From Holophagae bacterium (lineage in GTDB: Bacteria > Acidobacteriota > Holophagae > Acanthopleuribacterales > Acanthopleuribacteraceae): a DNA stretch of 64,000 bases. The stretch covers positions 372,001 through 436,000 of the forward strand of contig JAJCXM010000022.1 of NCBI GenBank assembly GCA_029263455.1, given 5' to 3'. Within the stretch, counting starts at the first letter, position 1. Each line of letters starts with the position of its first letter. The translations under genes were made by a program, and so were the position numbers. The notes beneath the pieces were generated by a model that had not been told where the DNA came from, did not search any database, and worked only from the letters and a program-made list of their open reading frames with translations. Positions 3,278 through 13,661 of this stretch are shown here, piece after piece.

Positions 3278-4147
3278 ATGTTTATGTCGCTTTTACTGAT
3301 GTCATTCTTGGTAGTTGAAAACGATTTTTCGACTGCAGAAGAGGCTTGGAGGGCCGAACGGCTTGAAAAGCTCAAGTCTGAAGACGGCTGGCTAAATCTT
3401 ATTGGCCTCTTTTGGCTTAAAGAAGGTGAAAACCTGTTTGGGACTGCTGAAGTCAGCGATATTTTGTTACCCACCATGTCCACGGTCCCTCATGCAGGAA
3501 CGATTATCGTCAACGATGACAAGGTTCGTTTCACCATGGAGCGCGCTCAAAGAGCTCTGTTGAACGGCGAAGCCAAGCGCGAGGGTGAACTGAAAATGAG
3601 TTCTCCACCTGATATTCTCGCGCACAATCACATACGCATGTTCTTAATTGAACGGGACGATCGTTTGGCATTGAGAGTGAGAGATTTACGCGCAAAGGCG
3701 GTTGTCAACTTCAAAGGGATTCAGTCATTCAAAGCCAAAGAAAAGTATGTTGTAGAAGCGCAATACACGCCTTTCGAAGAGAACGAAGTCATCTGGGTTT
3801 CAACCGTCATAGGAACACAAGAGATGATGGAAGTACCTGGAAAACTAAGCTTTGAATGGGAAGAGGAGAGCTATGAGCTACTACCGTTTGTCGAAGGAGA
3901 AGGGGACGATCGCTACCTGTTTATCATTTTCAAAGATCTAACATCAGGATCGGAAACCTATCCGGGCGGACGTTACTTGAAGGCTTCGATACCTGCCGAA
4001 GGCGAAGCGGTGATGCTCAATTTTAATCGCGCCTACAATCCACCATGTGCATTTACACCCTATGCCACCTGTCCCTTGCCACCTGCCGATAATTGGCTCG
4101 ACGTATCCATTGAGGCCGGAGAGAAATACATTGCCGGCGATCATTGA
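3278..4147 (+). CDS. DUF1684 domain protein, probably exported
   Basis: The 289-residue protein opens with a hydrophobic stretch that could be a short signal peptide. It then shows the DUF1684 pattern: EEAWRAERLEKL, GWLNLIGLFWLKEGEN, F.G and a C-terminal FNRAYNPPCAFTPYATCPLPP.DNWLDVSIEAGEKY. DUF1684 proteins are common in Bacteroidetes, actinobacteria and acidobacteria and have no established biochemical role. AGGTGG precedes the ATG; an alternative ATG lies 6 bases downstream. The stop is 8 bases before the acyl carrier protein gene, so it could share the transcript of the polyketide cluster, but no functional link can be shown. Confidence 0.8.
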   Translation: MFMSLLLMSFLVVENDFSTAEEAWRAERLEKLKSEDGWLNLIGLFWLKEGENLFGTAEVSDILLPTMSTVPHAGTIIVNDDKVRFTMERAQRALLNGEAKREGELKMSSPPDILAHNHIRMFLIERDDRLALRVRDLRAKAVVNFKGIQSFKAKEKYVVEAQYTPFEENEVIWVSTVIGTQEMMEVPGKLSFEWEEESYELLPFVEGEGDDRYLFIIFKDLTSGSETYPGGRYLKASIPAEGEAVMLNFNRAYNPPCAFTPYATCPLPPADNWLDVSIEAGEKYIAGDH

Positions 4148-4155
4148 GTTAATTT

Positions 4156-4698
4156 ATGCATGATCCTCCTTCACTTTCACAATTGGTCGACGAAATCAGT
4201 CAGATCTTAAAGCAGGCCTGCCAGAAGGATGTCATCGCTAGCGACCGACCGCTTGTGGGCGAATTGGGCTTTGATTCGTTGGATATGATAGAAGCGGCGT
4301 TTTCTATGGAGGATCGCTTTGGATTTCAATTTGCCGAAAAACATCCATTAGATGTACTCAACGAAATAGTTGGCGCGGACATCATCGTCAAGGAGGGTTT
4401 GCTGACGCCTTTAGGTCGCGAGATGGCTATCAAAAGGATGCCTGAGTTAGGTGCCTTCCAAATCGAAGAAGGCGTTAGTACAGATGCATTGCAGGCCTAT
4501 TACACGGTTGAAACCTATGCGCGAATGCTACGGGAGTTTTACCTTGCGCTTCCTGAAGTTGACCCGGAAACTCAAGAACTGATTGTCCTGGATGGCTTAC
4601 GCCCAGTTACGCAGACATCTGGAAAAATCGTCAATCCGCCCGCTGGAGATGAATTGGTAAAAAACTGGGCGCTAAAGGTCGCTGCGGAAATAAAGTGA
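4156..4698 (+). CDS. Acyl carrier protein with long C-terminal extension
   Basis: Residues 1-80 form an acyl carrier domain with the phosphopantetheine site GFDSLDMIEA (Ser41) and the acidic helix that follows. The protein is 180 residues, about twice a normal ACP. Its C-terminal half (about 85-180, starting LLTPLGREMAI) has no recognisable fold and could dock a partner enzyme. It begins the tightly packed run ACP, ketosynthase, ketosynthase-like partner, type III PKS, methyltransferase, FAD oxidoreductase. The overlap of its stop with the GTG of the next gene (GTGA) implies coupled translation. It most likely carries the growing acyl chain for the cluster rather than for bulk fatty acid synthesis, which is inference from context. 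Confidence 0.85.
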   Translation: MHDPPSLSQLVDEISQILKQACQKDVIASDRPLVGELGFDSLDMIEAAFSMEDRFGFQFAEKHPLDVLNEIVGADIIVKEGLLTPLGREMAIKRMPELGAFQIEEGVSTDALQAYYTVETYARMLREFYLALPEVDPETQELIVLDGLRPVTQTSGKIVNPPAGDELVKNWALKVAAEIK

Positions 4699-5831
4699 GA
4701 GCTATTTACCTCGGTGAATCTGAACATGTCCTGCCCGCCAAATTAACCATTGACGATTTATTCAAGGGCCGCTCAGGCGTTCAGAGATTGGGCGAACAGT
4801 GGCCCGTTCATGTGGCAGGCAAAGTCAGCGGCACATTGCCGGATTTAGTGGATTTCCCGTTCAGGTACCAGCCGAGAGCACTTCAATTGGCCGACAAGGC
4901 CATATCCGGCATGAGCCAGGAACGGTCACCTCAATGTGGATTAGTCTTAGCCATGTCGTCGCTATTTAGTGAGACCGACTATTTGCAGCACACGTTGACT
5001 CATCGCGAAAGTGAAGTTGGCATGCGTGAAGTTGCCGGTTTTGCATCGGACCACGCCTTACACTACTTGGCCAAGAGATGGAAATTCATGGGTCCGCGTA
5101 TCCGGGTGGATTCGGCCTGTGCCAGCGGATCAGATGCGCTAATTGTGGCGTCTGAATGGCTATCGGCTGGCTTGGTGGAAGAATGTATGGTGGTTGCTGC
5201 CGCTTCCATGCTTAATCCAGTTGGCTTGGCCGTCTTTAAGAATCTACGCGCTTTATCGGTCGAGAATGATCTTGAGGCAAGTCGCCCGTTTGATCGCCGA
5301 CGCAAGGGCTTTGTAATGGGTGAAGGGGCCGTTGCATTGCTGCTTAGCACAAAAACAAAGTCGTCGTGTTGTGTACGAGGCTGGGGCCAATCCATGAATG
5401 CGCATAAATTCACTGACCTACCTGAAGATGTGTCGGCTATGAAACAGGCCGCGTTGACGGCTGCAGGCGCCAACTTGGGCGATATCGCCTACACATGCGC
5501 CCATGGCACTGGCACAGCTTCAAATGATTGGGCAGAAACACGTTTGCATCATGACATCCATCGAAAACGAGCCGAAAGCATACCGATATCAGCTATTAAG
5601 TCTATGACGGGACACTGTTTGGGGGCGTCATCACTGTTGGAAATTGTGGTCACGGCAGAGGCCTTGACTCGACAACAAGCGCCGCCAACTATTCATCTTC
5701 GAGTCCCGGACCCCTTGTGTGATCTGGACTACGTTGTGGACCATGCCAAGGTAATCGACGGCGATTTCGCATTAAGCCAATCATTCGCCTTTGGCGGACA
5801 CAATAGTGCCGTTCTTATGGGGTTAGCATGA
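4695..5831 (+). CDS. Beta-ketoacyl-ACP synthase (KAS II/FabF-like)
   Basis: The 378-residue condensing enzyme has the full Cys-His-His set: VDSACASGSDAL (Cys142), AHGTGTASND (His270) and KSMTGHCLGASS (Lys302, His307). It also keeps the DRRRKGFVMGEGA segment typical of KAS II enzymes. It should catalyse decarboxylative Claisen condensation of an acyl group with malonyl-ACP. It starts at GTG 4695, overlapping the ACP stop, and its own stop overlaps the ATG of the following Cys-less ketosynthase-like gene (ATGA). This KS plus partner arrangement recalls the KS-alpha/chain-length-factor pairs of type II PKS systems. At 378 residues it is slightly shorter than FabF (about 410), with a shortened N-terminus. 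Confidence 0.9.
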   Translation: MRAIYLGESEHVLPAKLTIDDLFKGRSGVQRLGEQWPVHVAGKVSGTLPDLVDFPFRYQPRALQLADKAISGMSQERSPQCGLVLAMSSLFSETDYLQHTLTHRESEVGMREVAGFASDHALHYLAKRWKFMGPRIRVDSACASGSDALIVASEWLSAGLVEECMVVAAASMLNPVGLAVFKNLRALSVENDLEASRPFDRRRKGFVMGEGAVALLLSTKTKSSCCVRGWGQSMNAHKFTDLPEDVSAMKQAALTAAGANLGDIAYTCAHGTGTASNDWAETRLHHDIHRKRAESIPISAIKSMTGHCLGASSLLEIVVTAEALTRQQAPPTIHLRVPDPLCDLDYVVDHAKVIDGDFALSQSFAFGGHNSAVLMGLA

Positions 5832-6583
5832 TAGCTATCCGTGAAATTAGCGCAGTTGTCACCCGCGACCTCGGTATCGTGTCGCCGTGGCTGTCGATTG
5901 TGCAGCAAGCTGAAGATCGGCGTAGCAGTTCTCCTGCAGCCCAATACGCATTGATGGCAGCTTCCAAATTGGCCACCTCGCCCACAAAGATGGCGATGAT
6001 ATGTTTTTCCGGTCCCAGTGGTGCCCATATCTCTCGTTTTGATGGCGCATGTGATTCCCAAAAACAACTGGTAAGTGATGGCTTCGCTGCGACCCGACAT
6101 CGCAAAATACATCCTTTCACTCTACTCTTGGCACTTCAGAATCAAGTGCCGGCCATGTTATCGATGCAGCTTGGTATGCTTGGTCCATGTACGAATATGT
6201 TCGAGTCGGGTACGTCATTTGCCTTTGCTCTACCATTGATAGAGGCATATTTACGAGGCGGATTTCGCGTGCTTGTGGTCATGAGTAGCGCGGCCGATCG
6301 GCTTGAAGAACGGCAACGCACAGCTAGTTTTCGCGCATCCAAAAAATCATTTGAAGGCGCCATTTGTGTGGTTTTTGATAGGAAAGGCGAACTTGGCCAC
6401 ATCAAGGCCGAAAGCGAACATGCAGAATGGCTCGATCTATGGTACGACTTGAATGTCATCGAACCAGTGCTGATGCCCGGTGTTGGCTTACTGAAAGCAA
6501 TTCACGGCAAGGCCAAGCAGGTCAGAGTTGGATTGCGAGACGATACGGGTTTTGAATCTTCATTTTGTTGGGAGGCTGTTTGA
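5828..6583 (+). CDS. Ketosynthase-like partner lacking the catalytic Cys (chain-length-factor-like)
   Basis: The 251-residue protein resembles the N-terminal half of a ketosynthase (beta-ketoacyl synthase N-terminal-like family). The nucleophile region reads LGPCTNMFESGTSFAFALPLIEA. Aligned with GPRIRVDSACASGSDAL of the preceding KS, the catalytic Cys corresponds to Gly128. No AHGTGT or SxxGHxxGA His motif is present, and the C-terminal half is missing. It therefore cannot condense by itself and is best read as a chain-length-factor or structural partner of the upstream ketosynthase. Translation is coupled on both sides (ATGA with the KS, TTGA with the type III PKS). The similarity is modest, so the precise subfamily is uncertain. 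Confidence 0.7.
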   Translation: MIAIREISAVVTRDLGIVSPWLSIVQQAEDRRSSSPAAQYALMAASKLATSPTKMAMICFSGPSGAHISRFDGACDSQKQLVSDGFAATRHRKIHPFTLLLALQNQVPAMLSMQLGMLGPCTNMFESGTSFAFALPLIEAYLRGGFRVLVVMSSAADRLEERQRTASFRASKKSFEGAICVVFDRKGELGHIKAESEHAEWLDLWYDLNVIEPVLMPGVGLLKAIHGKAKQVRVGLRDDTGFESSFCWEAV

Positions 6584-7632
6584 TCTACATCAATCACGTT
6601 GTAACGGCGGTTCCGGAATACGAATTAAGCCAATCTCAAGTTGTCGAGATGGGGCGCGAGTTGCTTAGAGGTAAGGTCCCTTTCGTGGAGCAGGCTTTGG
6701 CCCTCTTTCGAAACGCGGGCGTTGAGCAGCGATTCCTTGTGAAAGACATCGATGAGATCTTGGCCCATCCATCTCTTGAATGGAGAAACAACGTTTATGT
6801 TGAGTGGTGTAAACGGCTGGGCGAAAAACTACTTACCGATCTTTTCCAAGAAACTGGGTTGCGACCCGACGAACTGGATATGCTGATTACAACCTCGTGC
6901 ACTGGCTTCATGATTCCGGCCGTTGACGCACACCTCATTAATAAGTTTAAGCTTCGTCCAGACATTGTTCGGATGCCGTTAACGGAATTAGGTTGTGCCG
7001 CGGGGGCCATGGCGCTTTCCCGGGCTCACGATTACTTAAAAGCACATCCGCAAGCGAAGGTTGTCGTTATGGCCATAGAACTGCCATCAATGACCTATCA
7101 GAACGATGACCATCGCATTGCTAACTTGGTTTCTGCTGCTCTTTTTGGAGATGGCGGTGCCGCAGCCCTGATCTCAAATAAGGAATCGAGCTGTCAAATG
7201 GTGACCGGACGCACTCATTTTTTCTATAACACCGAACATCTAATGGGTTTCGAACTGCTGAGCAGCGGCTTTCAGATCGTTTTGGACCGCGATATACCGA
7301 CCCTTATCGAATCAGGGTTTCGCGACGTGATCACCGATTTTCTCGCTAGTGAAGGTTTACAGATATCTGATATCAAAACCTGGGTGTTCCATCCGGGCGG
7401 GCGGCGAATTATGGATACGACGCGTGATGTATTAGGGCTGCAAGAAAGTGCCTTTACTCACTCTCGACGTGTCCTCAAAGAAGTTGGAAATTTGTCATCG
7501 GCATCGATCCTGTGGGTGCTGAAAGAAACGCTTAACAATCACCCCGATACAGGGCCCGCTGTCATGGCAGCTTTTGGTCCGGGATTCAATGCCGAACTCA
7601 TTTTGGCTAACATGACCGGCGCACAAAGTTGA
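6580..7632 (+). CDS. Type III polyketide synthase (chalcone/stilbene synthase family; alkylpyrone/alkylresorcinol synthase-like)
   Basis: The 350-residue enzyme has the type III PKS triad: TELGCAAGAMAL (Cys139), WVFHPGGRRIMD (His271) and KEVGNLSSASILWVL (Asn304). It also has FGDGGAAALI and a C-terminal AAFGPGFNAELILA. The start is TTG 6580, since GGAGG lies at 6571-6575 and the family typically starts just before the INHVVTAVPEY-like segment; TTGA overlaps the previous stop. Such enzymes extend an acyl starter with malonyl units and cyclise it to pyrones or resorcinols. The following methyltransferase and flavoprotein match the order srsA-srsB-srsC of Streptomyces griseus (phenolic lipids) and bpsA-bpsB of Bacillus (alkylpyrone methyl ethers). 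The actual product cannot be read from sequence. Confidence 0.93.
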   Translation: MIYINHVVTAVPEYELSQSQVVEMGRELLRGKVPFVEQALALFRNAGVEQRFLVKDIDEILAHPSLEWRNNVYVEWCKRLGEKLLTDLFQETGLRPDELDMLITTSCTGFMIPAVDAHLINKFKLRPDIVRMPLTELGCAAGAMALSRAHDYLKAHPQAKVVVMAIELPSMTYQNDDHRIANLVSAALFGDGGAAALISNKESSCQMVTGRTHFFYNTEHLMGFELLSSGFQIVLDRDIPTLIESGFRDVITDFLASEGLQISDIKTWVFHPGGRRIMDTTRDVLGLQESAFTHSRRVLKEVGNLSSASILWVLKETLNNHPDTGPAVMAAFGPGFNAELILANMTGAQS

Positions 7633-8207
7633 CGTCGTCCAACCTGTATTTGGCCTTTATAGGCTTTATTGCATTGCTCCGTTTGGGCGAGTTGTTTTTA
7701 GCCCAAAGGAACCTCAAGAATGTTGGAACACAGGCTGAGGTCGTCGCCGAGCCCCGTTTCTCGCTGATGGTCTTGATGCATAGTCTTATGTATGTGGTCA
7801 TTCCGTTAGAACTGTTCTGGCGCCGTCCAACTCTTGGTGGTGCGCTGACTTGGATCGCCCTCGTCATCGTGATCCTTGCTTTGATAGCCAGATACTGGAC
7901 GTTGCGAACGATGGGTACGGCTTGGCACGTCCGCATCTTAAAAGGACCACAACTTCCCGTCATAACCGATGGACCGTTTCGCTATGTGCGTCACCCGAAT
8001 TACGCCATTGTCATGGTTGAACTTCTATTCATTCCCTTGATTCATCACCTCTACCTGTCAGCTATAGGATTGACAGTAATGAATGCTTGGGTGCTAAACG
8101 GGCGCATTCGGCAGGAAGAAGAATGGTTGTCTCAACGTCCCGATTGGGTCCGTGAAATGCAATCTAAACCACGTTTTTTCCCCCGCCTATTTGGCCGAGA
8201 ACCATGA
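7629..8207 (+). CDS. ICMT-family membrane methyltransferase (BpsB/SrsB-like)
   Basis: The 192-residue integral membrane protein has hydrophobic segments near residues 5-22, 45-60, 68-88 and 128-150. It carries the isoprenylcysteine carboxyl methyltransferase pattern GPFRYVRHPNYAIVMVELL followed by a charged EEEW. Members next to type III PKS genes, such as BpsB of Bacillus and SrsB of Streptomyces, O-methylate alkylpyrones or alkylresorcinols using SAM. The TTG start at 7629 overlaps the PKS stop (TTGA) and its stop overlaps the ATG of the FAD oxidoreductase, so it is translated as part of the same operon. A role in methylating the PKS product is a strong inference from this context. Confidence 0.88.
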   Translation: MTSSNLYLAFIGFIALLRLGELFLAQRNLKNVGTQAEVVAEPRFSLMVLMHSLMYVVIPLELFWRRPTLGGALTWIALVIVILALIARYWTLRTMGTAWHVRILKGPQLPVITDGPFRYVRHPNYAIVMVELLFIPLIHHLYLSAIGLTVMNAWVLNGRIRQEEEWLSQRPDWVREMQSKPRFFPRLFGREP

Positions 8208-9241
8208 ACTCCGTGGCCACTATTGTGGGTGGTGGACTGGCGGGACTGAGTGCCGCTCTTTTTTTGCGTCGCAAACGAATAGAGGTCCGAGTCATCGAAG
8301 CAAAATGCGGAGTCATTGATCGTGTTTGTGGTGAAGGCATCCTGCCATTTGGCGTGGAGATCCTGGAAGAGTTGGGTTTAGCCAAGCAAGCTCGAGCCCG
8401 TGGCAGAGTTCTGAAAGGAATCAAATATCTTTGTGGAAAACGGGTGGCTGTCGGCCGCTTTGATGGGAAAACAGGCATCGGAGTACCTCGCCATGAGTTA
8501 CATCAGATCTTTCGCGCCGCTTGCAAAAATGAGGGCGTAGAGCTGTGTGAAGGCCGATCAGTGTCGGTAGAAGAAGGCTGGGTCGATGCCCGGGGGTTGC
8601 GAGCACTGCGAGAGAGATCGCCCATGATTACCAGTCGTCGTGTCGGAGCCCGAATGCGACTTAATATCGATATCGGGGACCGTGTTTGCGTCGCTTTTGA
8701 ACCCTTTGGAGAGATCTATATGACGCCTATTGGGCCCCAGCAAACATCGGTTGCCTTCTTGGTTTATCCAAACTGTGTGCCGCCTGGCGTGGACTGGTCA
8801 ATATGGCTAAAGGCAAAGTTTGAATCCTGTTTTCCTGAATATGGTGAATGTCCGTTACAAGATTTTGCGGTTAGAGCGCCAATCGCAGGTTTTTCTACCG
8901 AGCCGCTGGGGTCCCGCAAAGCGGTTGGCGACTCTCTGTGCGCATTTGATCCAATATCGGGTTCGGGGATGAGTTTTGCTCTTTTGTCTGCCTACCATTT
9001 GGCGCAATATTGGCAGGATCAAACCTCCTTTGTTCGGGCCATTCAACCAGCCATAAAAGCAATCGATAGTTTCACGGGTCTTCTACTTTGGTGTTCAGGT
9101 GGGGGTTGGCGTAGTTCTCTCATGACTCGCCAACTGGCTCGCCGCCCGGCCCTCTTCAACGAGATCCTTCGGCTACATGATGCGAAACATCAAGTGACAG
9201 ACCTAGGCGCGCTCAAACTAGGCATGTTAATCACACCTTAA
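8204..9241 (+). CDS. FAD-dependent oxidoreductase/monooxygenase (SrsC-like position)
   Basis: The 345-residue protein opens with the dinucleotide-binding motif IVGGGLAGLSAALFLRR and an acidic strand end (VIEA). A CGEGILPFGVEILEELG segment and VPRHELHQIF follow, as in geranylgeranyl-reductase and PHBH-type flavoproteins, and the second FAD motif is GDSLCAFDPISGSGMSFAL. It most likely hydroxylates, oxidises or reduces the lipid made by the cluster; SrsC in the Streptomyces srs operon is a flavoprotein that oxidises the resorcinol ring. It is the last gene of the coupled run (ATGA overlap) and is followed by converging minus-strand genes. Substrate and direction of reaction are inferred from context only. 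Confidence 0.82.
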   Translation: MNSVATIVGGGLAGLSAALFLRRKRIEVRVIEAKCGVIDRVCGEGILPFGVEILEELGLAKQARARGRVLKGIKYLCGKRVAVGRFDGKTGIGVPRHELHQIFRAACKNEGVELCEGRSVSVEEGWVDARGLRALRERSPMITSRRVGARMRLNIDIGDRVCVAFEPFGEIYMTPIGPQQTSVAFLVYPNCVPPGVDWSIWLKAKFESCFPEYGECPLQDFAVRAPIAGFSTEPLGSRKAVGDSLCAFDPISGSGMSFALLSAYHLAQYWQDQTSFVRAIQPAIKAIDSFTGLLLWCSGGGWRSSLMTRQLARRPALFNEILRLHDAKHQVTDLGALKLGMLITP

Positions 9242-11834: not shown

Positions 11835-13661
11835 TCAGGGTGTTTCGAATTCGAGCGGGAGTCCAGCGGCCTTTATGACCCTTAACGCGTTGGTCGATTT
11901 CAGTTCGTTTGGATGTAAGCGATAGTCAAATGTCATCTGGTCCCCGCTTATAGTTTCGCGAAAATGGTATTTTTGAATTTGCTGCGGGGCTTGATCGGCA
12001 AGTGCCAATAATTCCAGGTCGTGAGTTGTGATGATGCCCGTGGCTGCTCTTTTAGTTAAATACTCGACAATGGCCTTACAGGCTATCAAACGTTCCCGGC
12101 TGTTGGTGCCACGTAATATCTCGTCCAACAGGAAAAAAACGGGGCGTCCTGGCTCCTGAACCGCATTGAGAATGGCTTTGAGTCTTAGAACTTCGGCATA
12201 AAAATAGGATACGCCTGCGTTTAACGAATCTTGAATGCGGATGCTGGTCCATAACCTTGGCAAACTGCAGGTAAGTCGTTCTGCGCAGACCGACGCGCCC
12301 AGTGCCGCGAGCACCCAATTAGCACCTACGGTTCTCAAAAAAGTACTTTTGCCGGACATATTTGATCCGGTTAACAGGTGAATTTGCCCCGCGCCCGAAA
12401 TACAATAGTCGTTGCCTGCACGTTGTGCCTCTGCAATAAGGGGGTGTCCCAAACAGTTGGCTTCGAACATTATTTTTTCATCAGCCAAGATCGTTGCTGG
12501 CGAGAATTGAGGGAATAACCAATTGAAATGGGCCAGGCTGGACAAAGCTTCGAATTCCACCAAGTCCTTAAACCAGGTCAATAGCTGACTAGCGTGTTGT
12601 TGACGCCAAGAAATGATGCGACTCACGTACCAAGCGTCCCACTGAGTGCAGTAGTTCAATAGGAAGTGGGCCAAACCATTGGCGCGGTAATTGAGGCCTT
12701 CACAGTAGGCTTGGAGGTGCCCTAGCTGCTTGCCAGCCTGGGATTGATTGTAGCGATGATGAATGGCTTGTAGCTGGTGACTTGAGAATTGGTGGTTCTC
12801 CAAGATGCTAGCCAATGAAGCGGTTGCATTGATGGGGTGTCGATGTTTCATCACGCCATCTATGAAATTGCGTTGTGTCCGACCGAAGAACGCATAGGAA
12901 ATAAATGCCAGGCCGGAAACAGGTAACCAGGGTATGTTCTCAATCTGAAAAATGAATCGCATTAGGATCAGGGTGGTTGCCGTCAAGGCCAACAGGGTTG
13001 CGGCAAATAGAAAGTAGCGATTCGCAGTAAAGGGTGCCTTCAGGTCCAGCCATTCAGGTCGTTGGTCTAGGTCAGCCGAAGCGTGTTCGTAAGTACGTGT
13101 GCGTAACATCATGCGTAGGCTAGCTTTTGGTGCGAGTTCCTGTGCTGAGGTCTGGCGTTCTCTTACTTCGGCAACGGTTGAAAACACTTCTATCCATGAC
13201 TGCAGTCGCTTACTAGAAGCCAGGAAATGTGTGCAATCGATAAGTTTTAAAAGACCGTTAGGACCACTAAAGTCTAAGTCGTGAATGAATGGGTGCGTGA
13301 GTGGGAATGTCATCGGGTGCTTGACCACAACTGCTTCTAGATCAAGGTTTATGCGGTTCAGGTCGTCGGCATACAGGGTTTGTCGCGTCCGGCAGCGCGT
13401 CAAATGGCGGTAAAGCTTATCGTGGAGCAGTAACTCGCCAAGGAAAAGCAACAGCAGGACGACGCTTGCCGATCCGCCAATCGCCATGTAATCGCCGCTA
13501 ACCGCGAACGAAATAGCAGCTATTAGCGCTAGAAAGGTAACAACACGAACAACGGCAAGTCGATCAATCAAACGTTGGATTTTTTGACCGCGACGTGCGT
13601 ATCGTCGAACGCCGCGGGTTAAAATGCCCTCGATAGTAGGAATCGAATTGGCCGAAGCCAC
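11835..13661 (-). CDS. Membrane-anchored MutS-like ATPase
   Basis: The 608-residue protein ends in a complete MutS ATPase: Walker A TGSNMSGKST (431-440), Walker B FFLLDE (about 509-514), the RGTNSRER segment, and TTHDLELLALA. MutS clamp-like helices precede it. The N-terminal mismatch-recognition domain is absent. Instead there are two hydrophobic segments near residues 38-54 and 62-78 and two more at about 215-235 and 243-258, indicating a membrane-bound protein. Such MutS-related proteins are widespread in Bacteroidetes, acidobacteria and others and have no proven role in mismatch repair. It is 7 bases downstream of the large lipoprotein gene, so both are probably co-transcribed. Confidence 0.88.
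   Translation of the reverse strand: MASANSIPTIEGILTRGVRRYARRGQKIQRLIDRLAVVRVVTFLALIAAISFAVSGDYMAIGGSASVVLLLLFLGELLLHDKLYRHLTRCRTRQTLYADDLNRINLDLEAVVVKHPMTFPLTHPFIHDLDFSGPNGLLKLIDCTHFLASSKRLQSWIEVFSTVAEVRERQTSAQELAPKASLRMMLRTRTYEHASADLDQRPEWLDLKAPFTANRYFLFAATLLALTATTLILMRFIFQIENIPWLPVSGLAFISYAFFGRTQRNFIDGVMKHRHPINATASLASILENHQFSSHQLQAIHHRYNQSQAGKQLGHLQAYCEGLNYRANGLAHFLLNYCTQWDAWYVSRIISWRQQHASQLLTWFKDLVEFEALSSLAHFNWLFPQFSPATILADEKIMFEANCLGHPLIAEAQRAGNDYCISGAGQIHLLTGSNMSGKSTFLRTVGANWVLAALGASVCAERLTCSLPRLWTSIRIQDSLNAGVSYFYAEVLRLKAILNAVQEPGRPVFFLLDEILRGTNSRERLIACKAIVEYLTKRAATGIITTHDLELLALADQAPQQIQKYHFRETISGDQMTFDYRLHPNELKSTNALRVIKAAGLPLEFETP

Follow-up and report, generated by a model that had tools for sequence, protein, structure and literature searches.

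Type III polyketide synthases (T3PKSs) are generally regarded as enzymes that work alone on whatever acyl-CoA the cell offers, and the exceptions known from the open-access literature draw on type I enzymes, single acyl carrier proteins (ACPs) or the primary fatty acid synthase (FAS). A six-gene operon of a Holophagae bacterium raises the question of whether such an enzyme can also be supplied by a type II ketosynthase module of its own. The operon lies at 4156-9241 of the window analysed here, a stretch of 64,000 nucleotides from a 6.25 Mb draft genome (40 contigs, 95% complete); positions are those of the window unless a locus handle (L) precedes them. Its six co-directional open reading frames (ORFs) are as follows:

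4156..4698, + strand: enlarged ACP, 180 aa (PP-binding PF00550, E=7.8e-6)
4695..5831, + strand: FabF-type ketosynthase (KS), C142/H270/H307 (PF00109/PF02801)
5828..6583, + strand: KS', a half-length, nucleophile-less ketosynthase-fold partner, 251 aa, chain-length-factor-like by its AlphaFold2 (AF2) model matches; no Cys at the nucleophile position
6580..7632, + strand: T3PKS, C139/H271/N304 (PF08392/PF00195/PF02797; FAE1_CUT1_RppA, Chal_sti_synt N + C)
7629..8207, + strand: ICMT/PEMT-type membrane methyltransferase (MT) (PF04140, E=2.4e-21)
8204..9241, + strand: FAD-dependent oxidoreductase of the flavin monooxygenase / geranylgeranyl-reductase superfamily (PF01494, FAD_binding_3, E=1.2e-11)

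Judging from sequence, these six genes probably make up one pathway, in which the KS-KS' pair would build or select an acyl-ACP starter for the T3PKS, and the MT and the FAD oxidoreductase would tailor the product. A narrower version, plausible but not quite probable, is that of a type II/type III hybrid polyketide synthase, in which the KS and a half-size chain length factor (CLF) set the starter on a private ACP and hand it over directly, the CLF rather than the T3PKS tunnel fixing the chain length. The proposal is supported by the translational coupling of the six ORFs, their adjacency, the pairing of ACP and MT at a second locus in four relatives, the all-or-none occurrence of the set, the CLF-like KS', the separateness of the KS from FabF, and precedents for acyl-ACP starters.

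The ORFs are joined by five 4-base stop/start overlaps (GTGA at 4695, ATGA at 5828, TTGA at 6580, TTGA at 7629 and ATGA at 8204), exactly as an initial annotation, made from the letters of the window alone, had read them. TTG is the start codon of both the T3PKS and the MT, and the ORF list holds an alternative TTG start for the T3PKS 15 nt further upstream. The gene 3' of the FAD oxidoreductase is on the opposite strand, and promoter and terminator scans gave no signal above that of shuffled sequences. The initial annotation was also right that the operon encodes no ketoreductase (KR) or dehydratase (DH), as judged by the ORF list and Pfam, and none is encoded in any relative's locus; therefore, either the chain would be reduced by FAS enzymes, or it would stay short and unreduced.

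Conservation was examined in seven genomes of the order, which are few and related. The T3PKS and KS' are present in six of them (the window's genome, the metagenome-assembled genomes (MAGs) HKST-UBA04, MO_135.B14 and 8_bin.70, Sulfidibacter corallicola and Acanthopleuribacter pedis) and absent from the seventh, a genome of 3.5 Mb. In every carrier KS, KS' and T3PKS are adjacent and in the same order, with 25-64% protein identity to their counterparts in the window, which is more than chance would leave. All six T3PKS-bearing genomes also hold one copy each of the ACP, MT and FAD oxidoreductase orthologues (ACP 37-55% identity over the full length, and FAD oxidoreductase 39-49%, in the five other genomes), while the seventh has no MT or FAD orthologue and only a weak match to an ordinary ACP. 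The six genes form one run, headed by a DUF1684 gene, only in the window and HKST-UBA04; in the other four carriers a second locus pairs the ACP orthologue (37-44%, full-length) with the MT orthologue (50-51%), and a third holds the FAD orthologue (39-41%). That the set, spread over three loci, is either complete or missing speaks well for a single pathway, though the genomes are few and related. A lack of conservation of ACP, KS and KS' along with the T3PKS in relatives had been named beforehand as an outcome that would speak against the proposal, and instead the set is co-conserved in six genomes. The genes flanking these separate loci in the relatives look like housekeeping genes; those next to ACP-MT were not counted as part of the pathway, and neither was a rhomboid gene that neighbours the FAD oxidoreductase.

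At 251 aa, KS' falls well short of the roughly 410 aa of a ketosynthase, and it reaches the cut-off of no Pfam family. Its alignment to FabF is confined to a stretch round one motif, RrIHPfTLLkaLqNQVpAaLsielgllGPC, and in the register of that alignment the nucleophile position (residue 128) is occupied by G, and by S, P, D, V or N in the orthologues, but never by Cys. An AF2 model built from six sequences (pLDDT 75, pTM 0.79) was compared by Foldseek, and its best match was ApeC (6qsp_B, E=1.4e-5), the half-size CLF of aryl polyene synthesis; the next matches in the PDB were chain B of the ishigamide KS/CLF and other thiolase-fold proteins, the CLFs 6kxf_B and 1tqy_B being among the matches. 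Thus, a gene for an active KS is followed directly, in six genomes, by one for a KS-like protein that lacks the nucleophile Cys and has, in a medium-confidence model, a thiolase/CLF fold. KS' is, on this modelling, a CLF-like half protein. The Cys-less, ketosynthase-like partner described at the outset therefore stands, with the refinement that it is half-length and not a full ketosynthase. The idea that KS' duplicates the neighbouring KS was dropped, as their profile comparison was not significant. KS' evolves much faster than its neighbours: among the same genomes its identity is 25-38%, against 47-59% for the KS and 54-64% for the T3PKS.

We infer the following course of synthesis. The KS and KS' would form a ketosynthase/CLF heterodimer in the aryl-polyene layout of a full KS with a half-size CLF, and this would build or select an acyl or beta-ketoacyl chain on the private, enlarged ACP, any reduction being carried out by a KR and DH borrowed from fatty acid synthesis. 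The acyl-ACP would then prime the T3PKS, which would add malonyl units and cyclise, after which the ICMT-type enzyme would methylate and the flavoenzyme oxidise the ring, as in srs/hid-type clusters. The carrier itself consists of a PP-binding domain with a GFDSLD phosphopantetheine site and an additional stretch of roughly 100 residues; its AF2 model has a pLDDT of 91, and the top fold match of that model is, weakly (E=0.03), a specialised ACP. The private ACP first noticed in the operon is accordingly present, as an enlarged 180-aa protein. Enlarged ACPs of the same kind lie beside KS genes in a few other Acidobacteriota, including family f18, and these loci support the reading of ACP-KS-KS' as a type II module. 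At the f18 loci (L209 1938-9397, L210 7775-15234), the genes after an enlarged ACP and a KS encode a KS-like protein that lacks the Cys and then more KSs, apparently a type II array with no T3PKS. Another enlarged ACP stands next to a KS at L207 8050-12721, and the enlarged ACPs at L207, L209 and L210 carry a cysteine-rich tail.

The gene order of srs is reportedly the T3PKS-MT-FAD order found here, whereas hid and the planctomycete operons run methyltransferase-oxidoreductase-synthase. A type III synthase with a methyltransferase is common to SrsABC of Streptomyces, hidABC, the planctomycete alkylresorcinol operons, BpsAB of Bacillus and the operon described here, and srs and hid share its FAD oxidoreductase as well; however, no private ACP, KS or CLF has been described for srs, hid, planctomycete or bps systems. 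T3PKS, MT and FAD oxidoreductase stand together in the window and in the sister genome G198, and form three separate loci in the four other relatives. The resemblance of the last three genes to srs, noted early, holds, in that the T3PKS-MT(-FAD) part fits the widespread srs/hid-type arrangement (our survey of loci; PMC10896814), and alkylresorcinols are what planctomycete synthases produce when encoded in operons with such a set of genes (PMC10896814). The FAD oxidoreductase has QhpG as its best NCBIfam match (50 bits, below cut-off).

For the hand-off, the precedents lie elsewhere. In the cylindrocyclophane cyl cluster (CylB ACP, CylD/CylH type I synthases, CylI), a type III synthase receives its chain from a free ACP after elongation at earlier steps (PMC8086630), although there, unlike here, elongation is by type I enzymes. 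The Azotobacter system ArsABCD differs from the operon in that the latter has a separate FabF-type KS, a half-size KS' and an ACP, and no multidomain type I FAS is found among the ORFs of the window. ArsA and ArsD are type I FASs, and to our knowledge no dedicated KS/CLF/ACP module accompanies the germicidin synthase Gcs. Acyl-ACP starters are nevertheless on record for ArsB/C, to which a dedicated synthase (ArsA) hands a carrier-bound chain much as proposed here, and for Gcs (PMC6274091), as well as for CylI (PMC8086630). The aryl polyene pair ApeO-ApeC provides the other likeness, a KS with a half-size CLF: the aryl polyene CLF is about half the size of a KS and has one thiolase domain, only the first being mostly kept (ApeC; PMC8358021). 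The KS of the window is FabF-like rather than ApeO-like (231 bits to the best FabF profile vs 121 to 6qsp_A), and the pair is coupled to a T3PKS, in an operon that lacks the ApeO-type KS, the KR ApeQ and the DH by which aryl polyene clusters are recognised.

Several observations weigh against this interpretation. The homology of KS' rests on one medium-confidence model with a TM score of about 0.55, and a profile-profile comparison of KS' with the KS was not significant. No KR or DH is dedicated to the pathway, and none of the T3PKS sequence features tested marks ACP dependence. Finally, the ACP adjoins the MT and not the KS in four relatives, and its role could thus lie in methylation instead of starter supply.

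The T3PKS has the Pfam domains of the chalcone-synthase family above cut-off and a C139/H271/N304 triad that is invariant in its orthologues, as expected of a bacterial type III enzyme, and its nearest solved relatives are Pks11, THN synthase (1u0m) and CylI. In the register of the alignment, F224 occupies the position of chalcone synthase G256, which is W in Pks11 and Y in THN synthase. The lipid-like product may be an alkylpyrone, a resorcinol or a quinone, as the initial annotation proposed; an attempt to read the product class from active-site residues was dropped, since the positions compared do not separate the classes. The strongest alternative, in our view an unlikely one, is that two chains are joined late, the T3PKS forming a ring from acyl-CoA or from malonyl-CoA alone, and ACP-KS-KS' making a second chain that is attached afterwards in a dialkylresorcinol/aryl-polyene-like manner. 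In its favour are the resemblance of KS' to the aryl polyene CLF, the presence in the T3PKS active site of a second Cys, C107, which THN synthase also has (Cys106), and a best NCBIfam match of the T3PKS to the malonyl-only enzyme DpgA, which falls far below cut-off (140 vs 425 bits). However, no obvious joining enzyme is encoded in the operon or common to the core loci of the relatives, and C107 was rejected as a malonyl-only sign, because bacterial type III synthases generally have a Cys here (PMC6274091), as do 57 of 59 other loci of the survey described below.

The KS retains an exact C142/H270/H307 triad, invariant in the six orthologues, just as the initial annotation had assigned it. The operon-linked KSs (five in one tree, four in another) form their own clade, apart from the genomes' own FabF proteins, and the FabF of the window's genome is encoded on a different contig, close to the gene for an ordinary ACP. 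Because no locus contains a KR or DH, one may ask whether the pair elongates at all, and a KS pair acting as a transacylase, taking an acyl chain off the FAS ACP and loading it onto the private ACP or directly onto the T3PKS, would also agree with a match of the KS to AmcF, the cispentacin 'acyltransferase subunit', although that match is below cut-off (133 vs 325 bits). We regard this as improbable, since both His residues needed for decarboxylative condensation are kept and FabF outscores AmcF (204 bits).

To place the module, a pattern scan over 84,980 species genomes, which is limited to T3PKSs that contain either of two conserved 8-mers, yielded 64 related T3PKS loci, whose neighbourhoods were read in all six frames with flanks of up to 8 kb. 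An ICMT-type gene lies directly 3' of the T3PKS in most of the Acidobacteriota and Myxococcota loci, and an MT homologue adjoins it in most of those from Acidobacteriota. None of the 59 scanned loci outside the family has a KS gene within these flanks, and for KS' or the ACP the same 59 gave just two matches, of 17 and 18 bits. In a sample of 396 Acidobacteriota genomes, no KS' orthologues were found beyond the two genomes of the window's genus; weak matches in other Acidobacteriota were full-length KSs or CLF-like proteins and were set aside. The six T3PKSs of the order form one clade (support 100/100). Because the T3PKS is elsewhere usually accompanied by an MT and not by a KS, and the T3PKSs of the order and their linked KSs each form a clade, the KS/KS' module is an addition specific to this lineage, made to a T3PKS most of whose relatives are without it. 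The absence of a nearby KS or ACP from most T3PKS-MT loci would suit an ordinary srs/hid-type cluster, in which fatty acyl-CoA is a fully efficient substrate of the T3PKS, while ACP-KS-KS' belongs to another pathway co-transcribed by chance, but this is very unlikely given that KS, KS' and T3PKS stay adjacent across six divergent genomes and that the six genes occur all together or not at all.

Other Acidobacteriota do pair a type III synthase with a carrier and a ketosynthase. In an Acidobacteriaceae-like family (f10, genus g39; L131 6670-10165, L165-L169, L171) a conserved T3PKS-(FAD)-ACP-KS locus, with the FAD gene only sometimes in between, resembles the operon in setting a T3PKS beside an ACP and a FabF-type KS. 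It differs in that its T3PKS belongs to another clade, grouping with Pks11 and CylI at 36% identity to that of the window, its ACP is ordinary and short, KS' is missing, and its KS falls outside the KS clade of the window, for which reason it looks like an independent recruitment. We found no description of this locus. The initial view that the arrangement is unusual thus holds for the KS/KS' set, which is lineage-specific, and not for the pairing of ACP and KS with a type III synthase as such. At L170 4287-11749 (G351), a T3PKS, a methyltransferase and an ACP precede an AMP-binding enzyme and two additional genes, each coding for about 600 aa; here a ligase may load the ACP, which would in turn supply the type III synthase.

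No published type II/type III hybrid of this kind was found in the open-access literature, and two papers that treat the family are silent about this locus in the passages found. If the proposal is true, a dedicated and conserved KS/CLF/ACP module gives a T3PKS a programmed starter, and a half-size CLF would thereby have acquired a novel function. The separate f10 recruitment suggests that coupling type III synthases to carrier-bound starters is a recurrent solution. The module occurs in cultured bacteria rich in biosynthetic gene clusters (Acanthopleuribacter pedis, Sulfidibacter corallicola), which makes it testable.

Upstream of the ACP, the operon may have one further gene:

3278..4147, + strand: DUF1684 protein, possible first operon gene (PF07920, E=2.5e-45)

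It ends 8 nt before the ACP start, and its position is kept in the sister genome G198, where it overlaps the ACP gene; it was not found beside the KS locus in other genera of the order. A YceI-like (lipid/isoprenoid-binding) gene adjoins KS-KS'-T3PKS in four relatives (L025 6886-7593, L026 11790-12560, L027 6644-7549, L024 10853-11518) and is not so placed in the genus of the window; a gene for a lipid-binding protein likewise forms part of a planctomycete-associated T3PKS operon (PMC10896814). Among the scanned loci, L080 and L091 lie on MAG contigs that bear the names Klebsiella pneumoniae and Akkermansia muciniphila in their titles; these contigs carry T3PKSs of this kind and are probably mislabelled or contaminated. 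A MutS_V-type gene is found near the operon, at 11835-13661, and directly 5' of ACP-MT in two relatives (L116 7156-9069; L117 6806-8749), a placement that is possibly a trace of the assembly of the operon from separate loci.

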